Source: Halobaculum gomorrense (GTDB taxonomy: Archaea > Halobacteriota > Halobacteria > Halobacteriales > Haloferacaceae). From it: a stretch of DNA of 64,000 nucleotides. Positions 20,066 through 56,340 of the stretch are shown piece by piece (positions within the stretch are counted from its first letter, which is position 1; the number at the start of each line of letters is the position of its first letter). The notes under the pieces are model-generated. The model was given only the letters and a program-made list of their open reading frames with translations, was not told the DNA's origin and made no database searches. The position numbers and the translations under genes are program-made. Where the stretch lies: NCBI RefSeq assembly GCF_900129775.1, contig NZ_FQWV01000003.1, positions 124,001 to 188,000 of the forward strand. Reading direction: 5' to 3'.

Positions 20066-22402
20066 TCAGCGCACGTCGTCGAGGATCAGCTTCTGCTCGG
20101 TGCGCTTGACTTCGTGTTGCACGTCGCGGACGGCGTCGATGTTCGCGGAGATGCTCGTGACGCCCTCTTCGACGAGGAAGTCGACCATCTCCGGCTTCGA
20201 GCCGGCCTGTCCGCAGATGCTCGTGTCCACGTCGAGTTCGCGGCACGTCTCGATCACGTCGCCGATGAGCGAGAGGACCGTCGGGTGGAGCTCGTCGAAG
20301 CGGTCGGCGACGTTGCTGTTGTTGCGGTCGACCGCGAGGGTGTACTGCGTGAGGTCGTTCGTCCCGAAGGAGGCGAAGTCGATGCCGCAGTCGGCCAGCT
20401 CCTCGATGGCGAGCGCGCTCGCAGGCGTCTCGATCATCACGCCCCAGCGTCGCTTCGCGGGGTCGATGCCGACCGCCTCCATGTGGCGCTTCGCGGCCTC
20501 GACATCGGCGGCGTCGTTGACCAGCGGGAGCATCAACTCGACGTTGTCGTACCCCATCTCGTAGAGGCGCTTGAACGCAGTCAGCTCCTGTCGGAACACG
20601 TCGGTCTTATCGAGCGACCGGCGGATACCCCGCCACCCCATCATCGGGTTGTGCTCGTTCGGCTCGCTCTCGCCGCCCTCCAGCTCGCGGAACTCGTCGG
20701 TCGGCGCGTCAAGCGTCCGCGCGCGAACGGGACGCGGGTAGAACTCCTCGGCGACCTCGCGGATGCCGTCGACCAGCTCCTCGACGTACGCGTCGGCGCC
20801 GTTGTCGGCGATGTACGTCTCGGGCGTGACGCCGAGCGACAGCACCATGTGCTCGATCCGCAGCAGGCCGACGCCGTCGGCGCCGGTCGCGGCTGCGCGC
20901 TCGGCCGCCTCTGGGATGGAGACGTTCACCTTCACCTCCGTCGCGGTCATCGGCTTGACCGGCGTCTCGGGGCGGACCGCCTCGACGGGCTCGTACTCCT
21001 CCTCCTCCTTGGTCGCGCGTCCCTGTCGGATCGTCCCCTTGTCGCCGTCGATGGTGACGACCTGGCCGTCCGAGAGCGCGCTCGTGGCCGAGCCGGTACC
21101 GACGACCGCCGGCACGCCGAGTTCGCGCGAGACGATGGCGGCGTGGCTGGTCATGCCGCCCTCGTCCGTGACGATGCCGACGGCACGCTTCATCGCGGGC
21201 ACCATGTCCGGCATGGTCATCTCGGTGACGATGATGTCGCCCTCGGCGACCTGGTCGAGGTGGTCGAGCTTTGTGACGATCCGGACCTCACCGGAGACGA
21301 TTCCCGGCGAGGCACCGAGCCCGCGGAACAGTACCTCGTCGTCATCGTCGGTCTTGCCCGCGTTCGCGCGCGAACTCGACCCGGTGTCGATGCCCCCGTT
21401 CGTCGCGGCTTCGCGCTCCTGTCCCGAGGGGCCGGACCCGGTCGAGCCCGAGGCGTCCGAGATCGTCGTGATCGGACGCGACTGGAGCATGTACACGTCG
21501 CCGTCGTAGACGGCCCACTCCACGTCCTGCGGGGCACCGTAATGATCCTCGACCTGTCGGCCGAGATCGACGAGTCGCTCGATCTCCTCGTCGGTGAGCA
21601 CTCGGGCCTCGCGCTTGTCCTCGGACACGTCGCGCGTGACGGTCTCGCCCGTCTCGGGGTCCTTCTCCATCAGGATCTTCTTGTCGGCGACGGTGACCTC
21701 GTCGACGGTCGCCGTCTCGCGGTCGACGACGTAGTTGTCGGGGGAGACCGAGCCGGAGACGACGGCCTCGCCCAGGCCCCACGCGGCCTCGATGATGATC
21801 TCGGGCTCACCGGTCGAGGGGTGAGAGGTGAACATCACGCCGGACTTCTCGGCGTCGACCATCCGCTGGACGACGACCGCGATGTCGACCTCGCTGTGCG
21901 GGAACCCCTTCTGCTGGCGGTAGTAGATCGCGCGCTGGGAGAACAGCGACGCCCAGCACTCCTTGACCCGCTTCAGCAGCGCGTCCTCTCGGACGTTGAG
22001 GAACGTCTCCTGTTGTCCCGCGAAGGAGGCGTCCGGGAGGTCTTCCGCCGTTGCCGACGAGCGGACGGCGACGAACGCCTCGCCATCGTCGCCCATCGAG
22101 CGGTAGGCGTCGAGGATCTCCTCGCGGACGGTCTCGGGCAGTTCCGTCCCGAGAATGAGATCTCTGGCGGTCTGCTCGGCCGCGCGCAGCGCCGCGGAGT
22201 CCTCGGGGTCGATCTCCATCGCGGCGAACAACTCCTCGTCGATGCCCGCCTCCTCGATGAACGTCCGGTAGGTGCCCGCGGTCACCACGAACCCCGGCGG
22301 GACCGGCAGGCCGGCGCCGGTCAGCTCCCCCAACGAGGCTCCTTTCCCGCCGACGGTGTCCAGGTCGTCGGCGGTGACGTCGTCCAGCCAAAGTACAGCC
22401 AT
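20066..22402 (-). CDS. ppsA: Phosphoenolpyruvate synthase
   Basis: A 778-residue PEP synthase (pyruvate + ATP to PEP + AMP + Pi), a gluconeogenic enzyme. An ATP-grasp-like nucleotide domain covers about 5-310 ([30 protein letters not shown]). A swivelling domain has the phospho-His in [14 protein letters not shown] (His420). The PEP/pyruvate barrel follows, with [16 protein letters not shown] and [11 protein letters not shown] near the end. The linker at about 315-355 is unusually Ser/Gly/Asp-rich. ATG 22402 is chosen since [20 protein letters not shown] is the usual N-terminus. An inverted repeat and a TrmB-like site lie 57-88 nt upstream. Confidence 0.96.
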
Positions 22403-33600: not shown

Positions 33601-34277
33601 ACACCGTCGAGTCGGAGATCGCCAGGCTGTCCGCGGAGATGGAGGAACTCGAGCCAGTCAACATGCTCGCGATCGACGAGTACGAGGACGTGCAGGCCGA
33701 TCTCGACGACCTGCAGGAGCGCCGCGACGTGCTCGTCGAAGAGCGCGAGGCGATCGAGGAGCGCATCGACCGCTTCGAGTCCCAAAAGAAGGCGACGTTC
33801 ATGGACGCCTTCGAGGCGATCGACGAGCAGTTCACCGAGATCTTCCAGCGCCTCTCGGCTGGGACCGGCGAGTTGGTCTTGGAGGACCCCGACGACCCCT
33901 TCGAGGGAGGGCTGACGATGAAGGCGCAGCCGGCGGACAAGCCGGTCCAGCGTCTCGACGCGATGTCCGGCGGGGAGAAGTCGCTGACGGCGCTTGCGTT
34001 CATCTTCGCAATCCAGCGGCACAACCCCGCGCCGTTCTACGCGCTCGACGAGGTCGACGCGTTCCTCGACGCGGTCAACGCCGAGCGCGTCGGCGAGATG
34101 GTCCACGACCTCGCGGGCGAGGCGCAGTTCGTCGTCGTCAGCCACCGGTCGGCGCTGCTGGAGCGCTCCGAGCGCGCCATCGGCGTGACGATGCAGTCGG
34201 ACAACGTCTCCGCCGTCACCGGCATCCAGTTGGGTGACGACGGGGAGCCGGTGCCGGAGGTGAAAGCCGATGATTGA
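30690..34277 (+). CDS. smc: Chromosome segregation ATPase SMC
   Basis: A 1195-residue canonical SMC. Walker A GPNGSGKSN lies at 31-39. Coiled coil 1 covers about 170-520, and the hinge about 535-660 (GPVGELASVPGEYAKACETA, VLGSTLVVEDMETARHLMG). Coiled coil 2 covers about 690-1040. The signature MSGGEKSLTALAFIF lies near 1092-1106, followed by Walker B PFYALDEVDAFLDAVNA. The dimer entraps and organises chromosomal DNA with ScpA. The scpA gene starts 8 nt before its stop, so the two are translationally coupled. Length and motifs are normal. Confidence 0.97.
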   Translation: MHITELVLDNFKSFGRRTRIPFYEDFTVITGPNGSGKSNIIDGVLFALGLARTRGIRAEKLTDLIYNPGFEGGEGPTGEREASVEVVLDNADGTLDRSQVVSAAGSDDIGDTEEITIKRRVKETDDNYYSYYYLNGRSVNLSDIQDLLAQAGVTPEGYNVVMQGDVTDIINMTPHERRGIIDEIAGVAEFDAKKEDAFSELETVEERIDEADLRIEEKEERLDQLADERETALQYQDLRDEKEEYEGYLKAAELEDKRADLEGTRESMATREDELEDLRAELDERQARVDDLEGDLEEINREIERKGEDEQIAIKAEIEEIKGDVSRLEGKIENQRERVEEAETERRDAFVAIDKKTEEIDELEADIRETKVEKANLKSTLTSKQTELAEVQAEIDSVDTEFDELKAELADSKETLEELRAEKNELQREKDRLLDDARRRSNEIGDVEDEIQETREAIPQLNERVSNLHSELDKAEKNKASIDGVIEDLRGEKAEFQDELDEVEEDIRAKQQEYSKLEARAGDSGDTSWPRAVTTVRNADFSGVHGPVGELASVPGEYAKACETAAGGRLANVVVDDDGVGSDCIDYLKQRNAGRATFLPITEMDDRGLPSLPNDPGVVDFARSLVDYDPEYEGIFSYVLGSTLVVEDMETARHLMGNYRMVTLDGDLVEKSGAMTGGSGGGSRYSFSKSGKGKLERVAEEIHDLEDERQRIKAEIADIDDDLEDARSRASDAAEKVRDIESDIERAEEKLGSKEERIDELEDRLDELREERESVDEEMTELDEEIDAADDEIGTVEADIEELETELADSKIPELSAKADEIRADIDDLEARMDDLDGELNQLQLEKQYAEDAVDDLHDTVEEAQSKKADAEEAIDEFEERIAEKESTLEAKREAIAELEDELADLKEEREAVKESFREAKSARDEQESEVERVVSKLESLRETAERLEWEIDSLEEQVGSYDPEEIPDRDTVESEIARLSAEMEELEPVNMLAIDEYEDVQADLDDLQERRDVLVEEREAIEERIDRFESQKKATFMDAFEAIDEQFTEIFQRLSAGTGELVLEDPDDPFEGGLTMKAQPADKPVQRLDAMSGGEKSLTALAFIFAIQRHNPAPFYALDEVDAFLDAVNAERVGEMVHDLAGEAQFVVVSHRSALLERSERAIGVTMQSDNVSAVTGIQLGDDGEPVPEVKADD

Positions 34278-35130
34278 GGCGCCCGGCGACGTCTCGGTGG
34301 AGCGGCCCGACGACGTCGACGACGACGAGGTCGAGCCGGTCGAACTCCTCGTCAACCTCGCGGAGGAGGGCGAGATCGACCCGTGGGACATCGACGTGGT
34401 CGAGGTGACGGACGCGTTCCTCGACCGCCTCGACGAGGCGGACCTCCGCACCGGTGGCCGGGCGCTGTTTTACGCGAGCGTGCTCCTCCGGATGAAGTCC
34501 GACGACATGCTCGCCGATGACGATCCCGACGAGGAGGAGGACTTGGAGCCGTGGGAGGCCGCCTTCGAGGGCGGCGACGCGATGGGCGGCGACGGCGCGC
34601 CCGTCGACGACGGCTTCGACCCGGTGACCGCGTTGGAAGACGAGATGGACCGACGGCTCGACCGCAAGAGCACGCGCGGGTCGCCGGAGACGCTGGACGA
34701 ACTCGTCCGCGAACTCCGGGAGGCGGAACGCGGCACGTGGTGGAAAGAGTCGCGCAAGTACGACACCAGCGAGTCGCCGCGGGGGTTCTCCCGCGGGACG
34801 CAGACGCTGGAGTACCACGGCGCCGACGACCTCCGCCGCGACGGCGAACCCGGCGAGGAGGACGTGACCGGCACGACTCACGAGGAGGACATCGAGACCG
34901 TGATCGACGACGTTCGCGCGCGGCTCAATCCGCAGTACGACCGCGGCCGCGCGGAGGTGCTGTTCCGCGAGATCGCCGACGCCGGCAGCACCGCGGTGAT
35001 GACGTATCTCGCGCTGTTGTTCCTCGCACACCGCGGCGAGATCACGCTGGAACAGGACGACCTGTTCGGCGACCTGTGGGTGCGCGATGCGGGCGTCGCG
35101 ACCGCCGGCGACGGGGCGATCGCGGATTGA
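34270..35130 (+). CDS. scpA: Segregation and condensation protein ScpA
   Basis: A 286-residue kleisin. The N-terminal SMC-binding part reads EVEPVELLVNLAEEGEIDPW then DIDVVEVTDAFLDRL, the hallmark of ScpA. The C-terminal winged-helix part reads AEVLFREIADAGSTAVMTYL then LLFLAHRGEITLEQDDLFGD. The middle is acidic and flexible. It closes the SMC ring. The ATG lies inside the end of smc (8-nt overlap). No scpB is visible; haloarchaea commonly keep it elsewhere or lack it. Confidence 0.94.
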   Translation: MIEAPGDVSVERPDDVDDDEVEPVELLVNLAEEGEIDPWDIDVVEVTDAFLDRLDEADLRTGGRALFYASVLLRMKSDDMLADDDPDEEEDLEPWEAAFEGGDAMGGDGAPVDDGFDPVTALEDEMDRRLDRKSTRGSPETLDELVRELREAERGTWWKESRKYDTSESPRGFSRGTQTLEYHGADDLRRDGEPGEEDVTGTTHEEDIETVIDDVRARLNPQYDRGRAEVLFREIADAGSTAVMTYLALLFLAHRGEITLEQDDLFGDLWVRDAGVATAGDGAIAD

Positions 35131-35202
35131 ACCACGACCGCTTTTCGCCTCGGGTTTCCTCGGCGGGCTGCGGGAACCGCTCGGCGAAAACCCGTCGATG
35201 CT

Positions 35203-35310
35203 GTCAGACTCGTAGAGTCTGACTGCTAATCAGAATCGCAGTGCGATTCTGCTGATGCTGCAGGAACGCTTCGCGTTCCTGCTGCTAATCAGACGCCAAA
35301 GGCGTCTGAT
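35203..35310. repeat. Array of four consecutive short hairpins
   Basis: Four perfect stem-loops with three-base loops follow one another about every 29 bp: GTCAGACTC-GTA-GAGTCTGAC (35203-35223), CAGAATCGC-AGT-GCGATTCTG (35231-35251), CAGGAACGC-TTC-GCGTTCCTG (35261-35281) and ATCAGACGCC-AAA-GGCGTCTGAT (35288-35310). The stems differ in sequence but share the architecture. The spacers alternate between TGCTAAT-like and CTGATGCTG-like words. The array sits 73 nt after scpA. Such structure could act as transcription terminators, RNA processing sites, a structured RNA or a repeat-element array. Confidence 0.8.
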
Positions 35311-35637
35311 GATGCCAAAAAGCCGCCGTCGCGGGGTTTCACCCCGCTCCGGCGGTGAACCGCTCGCTTCGCTCGCGGATGCTGGACTCAGGTCGTTCAC
35401 CGACCGCGAGCGAGCGCAGCGAGCGAGCGAGCGGGCCAAGGAACCCTCGAAGCGCGGCTTCGCCGCGCTGAGGGGGTGACGCAGTGCTTTTGATCCACAT
35501 TTTGCAAGCGAGGAGCCGGAGGCTCCGAGCGCAGCAAAAGGTGGGTGGGCAGCATGTACCTAACGGCCGGGTTAGCCGTCGGTCGATAAACCAAACCGTG
35601 GCGTGCAGGTGGAGATGTGCTCTCCGAATCGCCGCCC
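35311..35637. other. GC-rich hairpin-dense intergenic region
   Basis: No convincing gene is seen between the hairpin array and mtnP. There are more self-complementary pieces: CCGCTCGCTTCGCTCGCGG (35360-35378), runs of GAGCGAGC around 35405-35435, AGCGCGGCTTCGCCGCGCT (35451-35469), and a nested hairpin TTTTGC...GGAGCC-GGA-GGCTCC...GCAAAA (35500-35539). The last resembles mobile hairpin units seen elsewhere in this window. An in-frame stretch can be translated here but is only the repeat DNA read as codons. Confidence 0.65.
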
Positions 35638-36516
35638 TCAGTCGTCGAGGTAGTCGTCCACGAACAGCCCGACGCGCTCGCGCGTCTCCTCCGGCACAGC
35701 CTCGCTGGGCGTGTTGATCGTGCCCTCAAGCGAGCCGTGGGCCTCGCAGTCCATGTCGTCGGGGAACGTGCGGACGGCCTCCTCGACGGTCTCCTTGATC
35801 GCCTCCTCGTTGGCGGCGGCGTTCTCCAGCACCTCCTCAAGGGTGACCTCGGCGTCCTGTTTCCACACGTCGTAGTCGGTGACGCCGGTGACGGTCGCGT
35901 AGGCCATCTCGGCTTCGCGGGCGAGTTTGGCCTCGGGGACCGCGGTCATGCCGACGAGGTCCCAGCCCTGGCTCTTGTAGAACTCCGACTCCGCCTTCGT
36001 CGAGTACTGGGGCCCCTCGATGCAGACGTACGTGCCGCCTTCGACGACGTCCGAGTCGGAGTCGAGCGAGTCGAGCGCGCGGTCGGCCGCCTCGGCGAGG
36101 TGCTCGGCCAGTTTCGGCGAGTACGGCCGCGTGATCGGCTGGTGGACGACGATCCCATCGCCGAAGAAGGAGAGATCGCGGTTCTTCGTGCGGTCGTAGA
36201 TCTGGTCGGGGATCACGAGCGTCTGGGGCGGCAGTTCCTCCTTCAGCGACCCGACCGCGTTGCTGGCGATGACGTACTCGACGCCGGCCTGCTTCAGCGC
36301 GTGGATGTTCGCCTTGTACGGCAGGTCCGTGGGCGAGCGCTGGTGGTCGGGGCCGTGGCGCGGGAGGAACACGACCTCGCGGCCGGTGTCGCCGAACTCG
36401 CCGATCTCCAGATCAGAGGATGGCTCGCCGAAGGGGGTGGTGACGGACTCGGTGCGGGTGTTCTGGAGTGGGAGCGCTTCGTAGATGCCGCTGCCGCCGA
36501 TGAAGCCGATGGTCAT
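35638..36516 (-). CDS. mtnP: S-methyl-5'-thioadenosine phosphorylase
   Basis: A 292-residue PNP/MTAP-family phosphorylase. TIGFIGGSGIYEA begins the fold; FLPRHGPDHQRSPTDLPYKA holds the phosphate-binding His/Arg; ASNAVGSLKEELPP, VCIEGPQYSTKAE and GMTAVPEAKLAREAEM follow. It cleaves methylthioadenosine (or a purine nucleoside) to adenine and methylthioribose-1-phosphate. ATG 36516 gives the conserved start. An amidohydrolase of the MTA/SAH deaminase group lies 0.8 kb away, so both concern methylthioadenosine salvage. Confidence 0.9.
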   Translation of the reverse strand: MTIGFIGGSGIYEALPLQNTRTESVTTPFGEPSSDLEIGEFGDTGREVVFLPRHGPDHQRSPTDLPYKANIHALKQAGVEYVIASNAVGSLKEELPPQTLVIPDQIYDRTKNRDLSFFGDGIVVHQPITRPYSPKLAEHLAEAADRALDSLDSDSDVVEGGTYVCIEGPQYSTKAESEFYKSQGWDLVGMTAVPEAKLAREAEMAYATVTGVTDYDVWKQDAEVTLEEVLENAAANEEAIKETVEEAVRTFPDDMDCEAHGSLEGTINTPSEAVPEETRERVGLFVDDYLDD

Positions 36517-36646
36517 TGGTACCCGGTCGTTCGCTCGGCCGCGATAAATGGCCACGGATCGTCTGTCGTCCCCCCGGATCCTGTGGTCGACGTGGTCGTC
36601 GAGACGGATCCCCAACACTTATTCACAGACCGTCCGGCGTGGAAGT

Positions 36647-55092: not shown

Positions 55093-56340
55093 TCAGTCGC
55101 CAGCAATAGGTTGGTGACTCTTGCCGTTCAACGTCCCACCATTCACACGCAGGTTTACTTCTGCGTCTCTGTCCCCCGACTTAGGCGAGGAACGGAGTCT
55201 GTGGATTCGCTTTCGAGCGTACCGTAGCCCGATGTTCTTCGCGCCGTTGTAGTCCGCGTTCACCTCGTATCCGCACTTCTGGCACTCGAAGTGTTCGCCG
55301 CGGCGGTTGTCGGGGTGTGTGAACCCGCAGTCCGTCCGAGAACAGCGTTGGGACGTGTGGTTCGGTTCGACTTGCTCCACAGTGACGCCCTTCTCGGGGG
55401 CCTTGTAGGAGACGTACTCGAACAGGCGTCGGAACGCCCAGACGTGGTGCCACTTCGCGTGTGGAAGCCGCTCGCGGATGTCGGTCAAGTCCTCGAACGC
55501 GATTACGTCGCAGTTGTGTTCGACGGCTTCCGAGATGAGTTCGTTGGCGACGGTGTGGATGTACTGTTTGCGCCATGCTTCTTCGCGCTTCCCGAGGCGA
55601 AGCACGGCGTTGTGCGCGGCCTGCGTGCCGCGCTGTTGCATCTCTCTCCGTCGCTTCTCGAACTCGCGGCACCAGTGGTCGTAGTCGTCTCCCTGCCAGA
55701 ACGTGCCGGTTGAGGAGACGGCGAGGCTGTTGACGCCGAGGTCGATACCGAGGACCGTTTGGTCGGGGTGCCCGGTATCTGCCGGAACCTCTGCGTCGCC
55801 GTCTGTCCGCCGAGTCGAGATGTGGAGGTAGAACTCGTCGTCTACCGGGTCGTACCGAAGCGTACTCTCGCGGAACTCGTAATCCTCGGAGAGAACGTAC
55901 TGCTCGTAGGGCGTCGGGCTGTCTGCCGGGAGAACGAACGACGGTTCAACCCGGCCCTCGACAGTTGCCAGCGACACCTTGTTTCGGTAGAAGGTCGCGC
56001 TTCGCGTGTCGTAGTCCATCGTTTCGGCGGTGAACGTCGGGCAAGAGACGCGCTGTCCCTTCTTCCAGCGTTCGACACACCCTTTGACGGCTTCGACGGC
56101 GCGTTTGATGGCGGCTTGGACGAGTTGTGCCTGTAGGTCCGTCTCCTCTCGAAGTGCCGAGTAGAGCGCGTCACGAACCTGCCGTTTGTTGGTCTTGCAC
56201 TCGGTGAACGACGTGTCCGACCAACAGTAGTCGGCGGTTCGGTTCGCGCAGTACAGGTATTGGTCGGCAGTTCGGTGGAGTGCATCGCGTTGCTCGTCGG
56301 AAACGGCGAGTTTCACGACGGCGGTTCGACGCACATCCAT
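55093..56340 (-). CDS. tnpB: RNA-guided nuclease TnpB
   Basis: A 415-residue TnpB. The RuvC residues are kept: Asp in TVLGIDLGVNSLAV (about 197-210), Glu in VIAFEDLTDIRERL, and Asp in EVNADYNGAKNIGLR. The zinc finger lies between them (CSRTDCGF ... CQKCGYEV). The N-terminal half is the helical/WED region. Length is normal, so the nuclease is probably active. Its guide RNA should come from the 3' end of this gene and the adjacent terminal DNA (about 55018-55250). The target-adjacent motif cannot be derived here. Confidence 0.93.
   Translation of the reverse strand: MDVRRTAVVKLAVSDEQRDALHRTADQYLYCANRTADYCWSDTSFTECKTNKRQVRDALYSALREETDLQAQLVQAAIKRAVEAVKGCVERWKKGQRVSCPTFTAETMDYDTRSATFYRNKVSLATVEGRVEPSFVLPADSPTPYEQYVLSEDYEFRESTLRYDPVDDEFYLHISTRRTDGDAEVPADTGHPDQTVLGIDLGVNSLAVSSTGTFWQGDDYDHWCREFEKRRREMQQRGTQAAHNAVLRLGKREEAWRKQYIHTVANELISEAVEHNCDVIAFEDLTDIRERLPHAKWHHVWAFRRLFEYVSYKAPEKGVTVEQVEPNHTSQRCSRTDCGFTHPDNRRGEHFECQKCGYEVNADYNGAKNIGLRYARKRIHRLRSSPKSGDRDAEVNLRVNGGTLNGKSHQPIAGD

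Follow-up and report, generated by a model that had tools for sequence, protein, structure and literature searches.

A hairpin array behind scpA of Halobaculum gomorrense as probable tandem copies of a haloarchaeal REP-like mobile element

CGTC-tagged REPs, reported from bacteria only, have stems of 8–9 bp starting with AT, loops of 4–5 nt and a CCA tail (Di Nocera et al. 2013, PMC3733652). They occur mostly as head-to-head dimers behind genes, sometimes in ORFs or nested in other palindromes, and come without a dedicated transposase (PMC3733652). Archaeal palindromic elements with coding potential, located in frame in protein genes, have been described as well (Suyama 2005, cited in PMC2229807). 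REP-type palindromes have so far been described mainly for bacteria. The species with the archaeal in-frame elements is presumably Methanocaldococcus jannaschii. The array presented here probably consists of a haloarchaeal, REP-like, non-autonomous mobile element in two tandem copies, each of them a head-to-head pair of perfect hairpins with a 5-nt linker, TGCTA or one of its variants, in between. As far as we searched the open-access literature, the family is undescribed in haloarchaea; the Haloquadratum genome paper speaks of novel repeat elements but gives no detail, so that an earlier, unnamed sighting of the element may exist.

We analysed a stretch of 64,000 nucleotides from Halobaculum gomorrense (contig NZ_FQWV01000003.1, positions 124,001 to 188,000), referred to as the window. 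A preliminary description had noted four back-to-back hairpins with 3-nt loops at a spacing of about 29 bp and spacers alternating between two related words. Both points were confirmed: the array at 35203–35310 consists of four perfect stems of 9, 9, 10 and 10 bp, all with 3-nt loops, the hairpin centres are separated by 28, 30 and 28 nt, and the spacers read, in order, TGCTAAT, CTGATGCT and TGCTA. For the coordinates of all features see Table 1. Folding of the array resulted in -66.2 kcal/mol as RNA (z = -7.6) and in -45.6 kcal/mol as DNA (z = -11.4), values equalled by 0 of 200 shuffled sequences in either case. A Markov model of matching composition gave about 1.2 perfect hairpins (stem of at least 9 bp, loop of 3 nt) per window, and an adjacent pair of such hairpins occurred in none of 60 simulated windows.

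Table 1. Features of the scpA–MTAP region in coordinates of the window.
Feature	Position	Strand	Remark
scpA (segregation/condensation protein A), upstream gene	34270..35130	+	ORF; its stop codon bounds the intergenic region on the left
H0, imperfect gene-end palindrome GCTTTTCGCC...GGCGAAAACC	35140..35192	+	same block behind diverse genes of the genus
Conserved AAAACCCGTCGATG	35187..35200	+	insertion point of hairpin units directly after ATG; empty/filled alleles
Unit 1 hairpin H1 GTCAGACTC-GTA-GAGTCTGAC	35203..35223	+	9 bp
Unit 1 linker TGCTA(AT)	35224..35230	+	
Unit 1 hairpin H2 CAGAATCGC-AGT-GCGATTCTG	35231..35251	+	9 bp; 11 bp with one mismatch
Inter-unit spacer CTGATGCT	35252..35259	+	GATGC, repeated ATG
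Unit 2 hairpin H1 GCAGGAACGC-TTC-GCGTTCCTGC	35260..35282	+	10 bp
Unit 2 linker TGCTA	35283..35287	+	
Unit 2 hairpin H2 ATCAGACGCC-AAA-GGCGTCTGAT	35288..35310	+	10 bp
Right junction GATGCCAAAA	35311..35320	+	ATG duplicate, then CCAAAA as in the empty element
Right-hand palindrome of the gene-end element CCGCCGTCGCGGGGT-TTC-ACCCCGCTCCGGCGG	35323..35355	+	same block in L215
MTAP-like purine nucleoside phosphorylase, convergent neighbour	35638..36618	-	

The array is located in a gap of 507 bp between the 3' ends of scpA and the MTAP-like gene, which are encoded on opposite strands. The MTAP protein is 92–93% identical to proteins of Halobaculum litoreum and H. saliterrae, which places the genome in Halobaculum, and the scpA orthologs of all ten other Halobaculum genomes are 84–89% identical. 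A TTTT tract in the H0 block (35142–35145) lies 14 nt past the scpA stop codon. The same gap contains further perfect or near-perfect palindromes at 35451–35469 (AGCGCGGC-TTC-GCCGCGCT) and at 35495–35545 (CCACATTTTGC...GCAAAAGGTGG).

The four hairpins represent a two-hairpin module of about 55–60 bp, H1-TGCTA-H2, that occurs twice in tandem and lies inside a larger Halobaculum gene-end element. BLAST searches with the array region resulted in matches in 9 of 11 Halobaculum genomes. In this genus the linker also occurs as TACTA and TGCTG, and GATGC stands between units. Certain stem words recur at unrelated loci, namely GTCGGATTC(C), GCAGGAACGC and GTCAGAACGC in H1 and ATCAGAATCGC, A[TC]CAGACGCC and ACGGGAAATC in H2, and H1 and H2 words occur in many combinations. 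The stems are drawn from a small alphabet with the common base C[AG]GA; most are 9–11 bp long and they usually start with GT, GC, AC, AT or CGA. The stems of the array had been called unrelated, which we cannot uphold, since all of their bases are of the C[AG]G[AG]A type and the same stem words are met again elsewhere. The notion of a structure conserved without sequence is correct for the fixed design and the changing stems, but it disregards the shared stem base, the recurring words and the conserved TGCTA linker. The sharing of CAG and CTG at the stem ends is real and is explained by the same base. A CRISPR, with its identical repeats and unique spacers, had rightly been dismissed, as the stems differ and the spacers are conserved.

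For a census of the family we employed a covariance model comprising the two hairpins plus flanks, together with patterns and 200-kb samples; the model favours well-paired copies, so stem perfection is somewhat overstated. It matched all 11 Halobaculum genomes (2–29 hits each, empty sites included) and 93 of 146 haloarchaeal genomes of the order. Similar arrays, for which a search across haloarchaeal genomes had been proposed, are thus found in most haloarchaeal genera (43/57). No non-haloarchaeal genome of a phylum-wide sample gave a match with the covariance model, and all 17 positives belong to the order of the window. The 200-kb samples from three other genera contained four arrays each and the Markov controls none; one of these twelve arrays (G115, position 21872) differs from the family in its stems. 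The same stem words were found across genera. A second class with GTT tags, CGAGA/CGAAA stems and the linker TCATCA coexists with the first one, which in genomes of the Halorubrum-like genus g11 is nested in the linker of the second. All plasmid matches were haloarchaeal and, where the records are annotated, lie in unannotated DNA or inside one IS605 gene. A phage search gave no match. Among 2.9 million viral contigs the exact palindromes CAGAACGC and CAGAAATC were observed 5 and 21 times, but never paired, and we read these occurrences as chance. An Rfam search of the array yielded only a chance-level hit to mir-6132 (18.9 bits versus a gathering threshold of 112).

The gene-end element of Halobaculum comprises, in this order, the stop codon, a TTTT tract 8–16 nt further on, H0, AAAACCCGT(TC/CG)ATG and one of the words CCAAAA, ATCAAAA or ACAAAA; it is closed by a GC-rich right-hand palindrome. 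The word AAAACCCGTNNATG has 69 exact matches in the 11 genomes of the genus versus 0 for the reversed control. The genes upstream of the element are diverse, and several species often have it behind the same gene. Most copies are empty, with a site word AAAACCCGTTCATGCCAAAA, others hold one unit and a few hold two, the unit lodging at one fixed ATG of the palindromic element. At 35361–35430 of the window, and in the right-hand palindromes of many Halobaculum elements, GCGAGCGAGC flanks a GCCAGCC...GGCTGGC stem on both sides. This word is self-complementary only with tandem sheared G-A pairs (CGAG), and the GAGCGAGCG repeats of haloarchaea may form paired motifs to which Watson-Crick scans are blind.

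The array copy at the scpA–MTAP site is specific to H. gomorrense. Structural conservation in sister strains, named in the preliminary description as a check, was not found at this locus, the array being missing behind scpA in all ten other Halobaculum genomes examined. Three of these (G005, G007 and G008), in which MTAP is still convergent to scpA, have neither array nor H0; in the sister species G007 the 507-bp gap is almost gone and the genes nearly abut. In the remaining genomes scpA has other neighbours. The unit order in the window is (GTCAGACTC, ATCAGAATCGC)(GCAGGAACGC, ATCAGACGCC), whereas the second type stands first in G004, G005 and G007. The two units thus did not arise by simple tandem duplication.

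The unit is dispersed. At orthologous sites some genomes have it and others lack it, and a short target duplication of 3 bp goes with it, as read from a few clean pairs; it also occurs in frame inside genes. The array had been set apart from ordinary repeats, but it is a dispersed repeat with presence/absence alleles. In Halobaculum, L005 (G002) has the same H0 and the same gene as L216 (G006) and is 59 bp longer; L220 and L140 differ by 57 bp in the same surroundings, and L221 and L234 form a third empty/filled pair. In all three pairs the unit stands between two copies of ATG. TnpB genes from three families (L175, L176, L186) contain at the same site an extra in-frame CGTC-H1-TGCCA-H2-GAC (net 60 nt, GAC duplicated), which is missing in six homologs (L361–L364, L366, L367), the closest of which reads ...GGC-GACGACGGC. 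Filled and empty alleles were also observed in a carboxylase-like gene (L183 versus L308, net 60 nt) and in an aldehyde ferredoxin oxidoreductase (AOR)-like gene (L313 versus L315/L316, net 60–63 nt), both in frame; the identities of the genes with internal copies are a reading of the sequences without a family search.

In-frame hairpin pairs are recurrent in tnpB/IS605 OrfB genes (L175, L176, L186, L189, L280 and, on plasmid CP007061.1, L391). They lie at two or more sites of the protein, and an insert of 19–20 residues in the N-terminal region is common to three families. The window itself has a tnpB-like gene at 55816–56337 that is 47% identical to a haloarchaeal TnpB query.

The intergenic inserts measure 57 or 59 bp and those in genes are multiples of three, which would fit insertion with survival of the in-frame cases, although the numbers are small. 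The alleles suggest that the unit is mobile. In Halobaculum, however, an apparent gain could in fact be a loss through recombination between the ATG repeats. At one gene end (L140, L211 and L220) the right-hand palindrome is common to sister species and the H0 blocks differ, a pattern of mosaic exchange between dispersed gene-end elements. Given such differing H0 blocks at one locus, some presence/absence may be due to ectopic gene conversion instead of insertion.

An alignment of 82 distinct rows has 98.5% of its cells paired and shows two-sided changes in 20 of 21 pairs (397 cells, versus about 19 with one-sided changes). Counting each element once, 21 of 1227 cells are G-U (1.7%) and 11 are A-C. 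Numerous G-U pairs are usually tolerated where selection acts on an RNA. Changes in both arms, few one-sided changes and the low G-U fraction therefore point to maintenance at the DNA level. Strong covariation could also result from selection on RNA pairing, the hairpins then acting as a 3' UTR terminator, an exonuclease block or a regulatory RNA. The position of the elements, 8–16 nt past stop codons and with a T-tract, is in line with such a role, and in Haloferax volcanii termination can be aided by hairpins (PMC7237163). We nevertheless consider a selected RNA unlikely, as G-U is barely more frequent than A-C, the loops are triloops instead of tetraloops, and units are absent at orthologous gene ends of sister species and present inside ORFs. 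Moreover, none of the hairpins is followed by a T-run and 34900–35800 contains 0 terminator-like sites, which agrees with the earlier statement that the array is no ordinary intrinsic terminator.

The loops point in the same direction as the stems. In the arrays 200 of 212 hairpins have 3-nt loops and 201 of 212 loops are closed by C-G, compared to 213 of 435 in the comparison set. Triloops of the GNA type or its complement TNC make up 140 of 200 in arrays and 71 of 211 in single hairpins; a d(GNA) triloop closed by C-G is a stable DNA hairpin motif (PMC5815330). An excess of 3-nt loops was observed in three of four 200-kb samples. Among the orthologous copies of cluster 6 the loops are flipped (gaa/ttc) and a stem word is swapped as a whole. 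The C-GNA-G/C-TNC-G triloops, together with the low number of one-sided changes, suggest that each arm is re-copied from its partner. Template switching at quasi-palindromes might make and perfect hairpins in place without any mobility, in which case the array would be a mutational by-product only. The perfect stems, the flipped loops of cluster 6 and the loop excess are all compatible with this process. It cannot, however, yield insertions of 57–60 bp that at unrelated sites share stem words and the conserved TGCTA linker, or the same stem words across genera, and the clean empty sites disfavour it further, so we assign it a very low probability.

Just as improbable, in our judgement, is an origin from IS200/IS605 remnants (MITE/PATE-like), in which a deleted IS would have left behind its left end (LE) and right end (RE) as the two hairpins, with TnpA (Y1) moving them. 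An adjacent hairpin pair does resemble joined LE and RE, and several in-gene copies reside in IS605-type tnpB. A check for a dedicated transposase (Y1, within the genus) found a single Y1 gene with a hairpin pair 150–180 nt upstream (L358, G000 contig C10, about 700–800; stems CACGAGAGC and ACGAGACGC); it is the only Y1 gene of the window's genome. The ends of Halobaculum Y1 elements (L349–L357), however, have 8-bp stems, 4-nt loops and other sequences, and genomes without Y1 (G002, G004 and G010) carry 12–14 hits. No linked transposase was found: Y1 transposases are present in 6 of the 11 Halobaculum genomes and do not track the number of arrays. Y1 transposase was accordingly rejected as the driver.

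Based on the alleles and the hairpin features we propose the following scheme for the REP-like element. It would move, and stay perfect, as folded single-stranded DNA. Its arms would be re-copied via hairpin-templated correction or template switching, whereby whole stem words would be replaced at once and loops turned into their reverse complement. At scpA–MTAP two units of different stem composition would have come to occupy one site. The array, lying beyond the T-tract that would end scpA transcription, is probably near-neutral filler for the host. A wider and more tentative reading, which we regard as possible but on balance doubtful, is that of a haloarchaea-wide mobile DNA recognised by its folded shape and short tags and not by stem sequence. 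Its stems would be renewed as copies templated by the hairpin, an undescribed enzyme would move it, and it would be able to enter protein genes in frame. If the reading as a REP-like element is correct, most haloarchaeal genomes harbour copies of a mobile palindrome by which gene ends and proteins are altered. The empty/filled alleles make the movement of transposase-less CGTC REPs, a long-open question, directly testable. Covariation without G-U pairs is also a warning that compensatory changes need not imply a functional RNA.

Integron attC sites keep their structure while their sequence varies, a likeness to the present element, which differs from them by two separate perfect hairpins instead of one bulged palindrome and by the absence of any integrase or cassettes seen. 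Rickettsia palindromic elements (RPE) are likewise tolerated in frame in protein genes, but are single large palindromes of 105–146 bp instead of two small hairpins. With the ends of IS200/IS605 and their PATE/MITE derivatives the element has in common the paired hairpins, a possible ssDNA form and the co-occurrence with tnpB, whereas stems and loops are different and a correlation with TnpA is lacking. REPINs and BIMEs are similar in being dimeric palindromes at gene ends that form mosaic arrays with alternating linkers. Unlike these GTAG REPs with their RAYT, the element has no GTAG tag, no RAYT was found and its stem sequence is not conserved; GTAG is absent from the frequent outer flanks, and 5 of the 11 element-carrying Halobaculum genomes have no Y1 gene.

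The closest resemblance is to the CGTC-tagged REPs, with which the element shares short head-to-head palindromes, a location downstream of genes and sometimes in ORFs, occasional nesting in other palindromes and, possibly, an unpaired CGTC/TGTC-type tag. Outside Halobaculum, the outer flanks have GTT or GTC on both sides in 66 of 150 cases (three- and four-hairpin arrays counted more than once), and tag words among the 150 outer flanks are CGTC (17), TGTC (13), CGTT (19) and GGTT (14). Within Halobaculum the flanks are mostly TGCT, CGTT, GGTT, CATT and CATC, i.e. the tag is eroded. In line with the head-to-head layout, the reverse complement of the right flank gives the tag words of the left flank, as in CGTC...GACG of L175, L176, L185, L186 and L193. 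Differences are stems of 9–11 bp, 3-nt loops, the linker TGCTA/TGCCA and the many stem words. Neither AT at stem positions 1–2 combined with an 8–9 bp stem nor the 4–5 nt loops of CGTC REPs were found, array loops being almost all of 3 nt. Owing to this mismatch in loop length and stem start we do not file the element in the CGTC-tagged REP superfamily; by analogy, it appears to work like a CGTC-tagged REP dimer.
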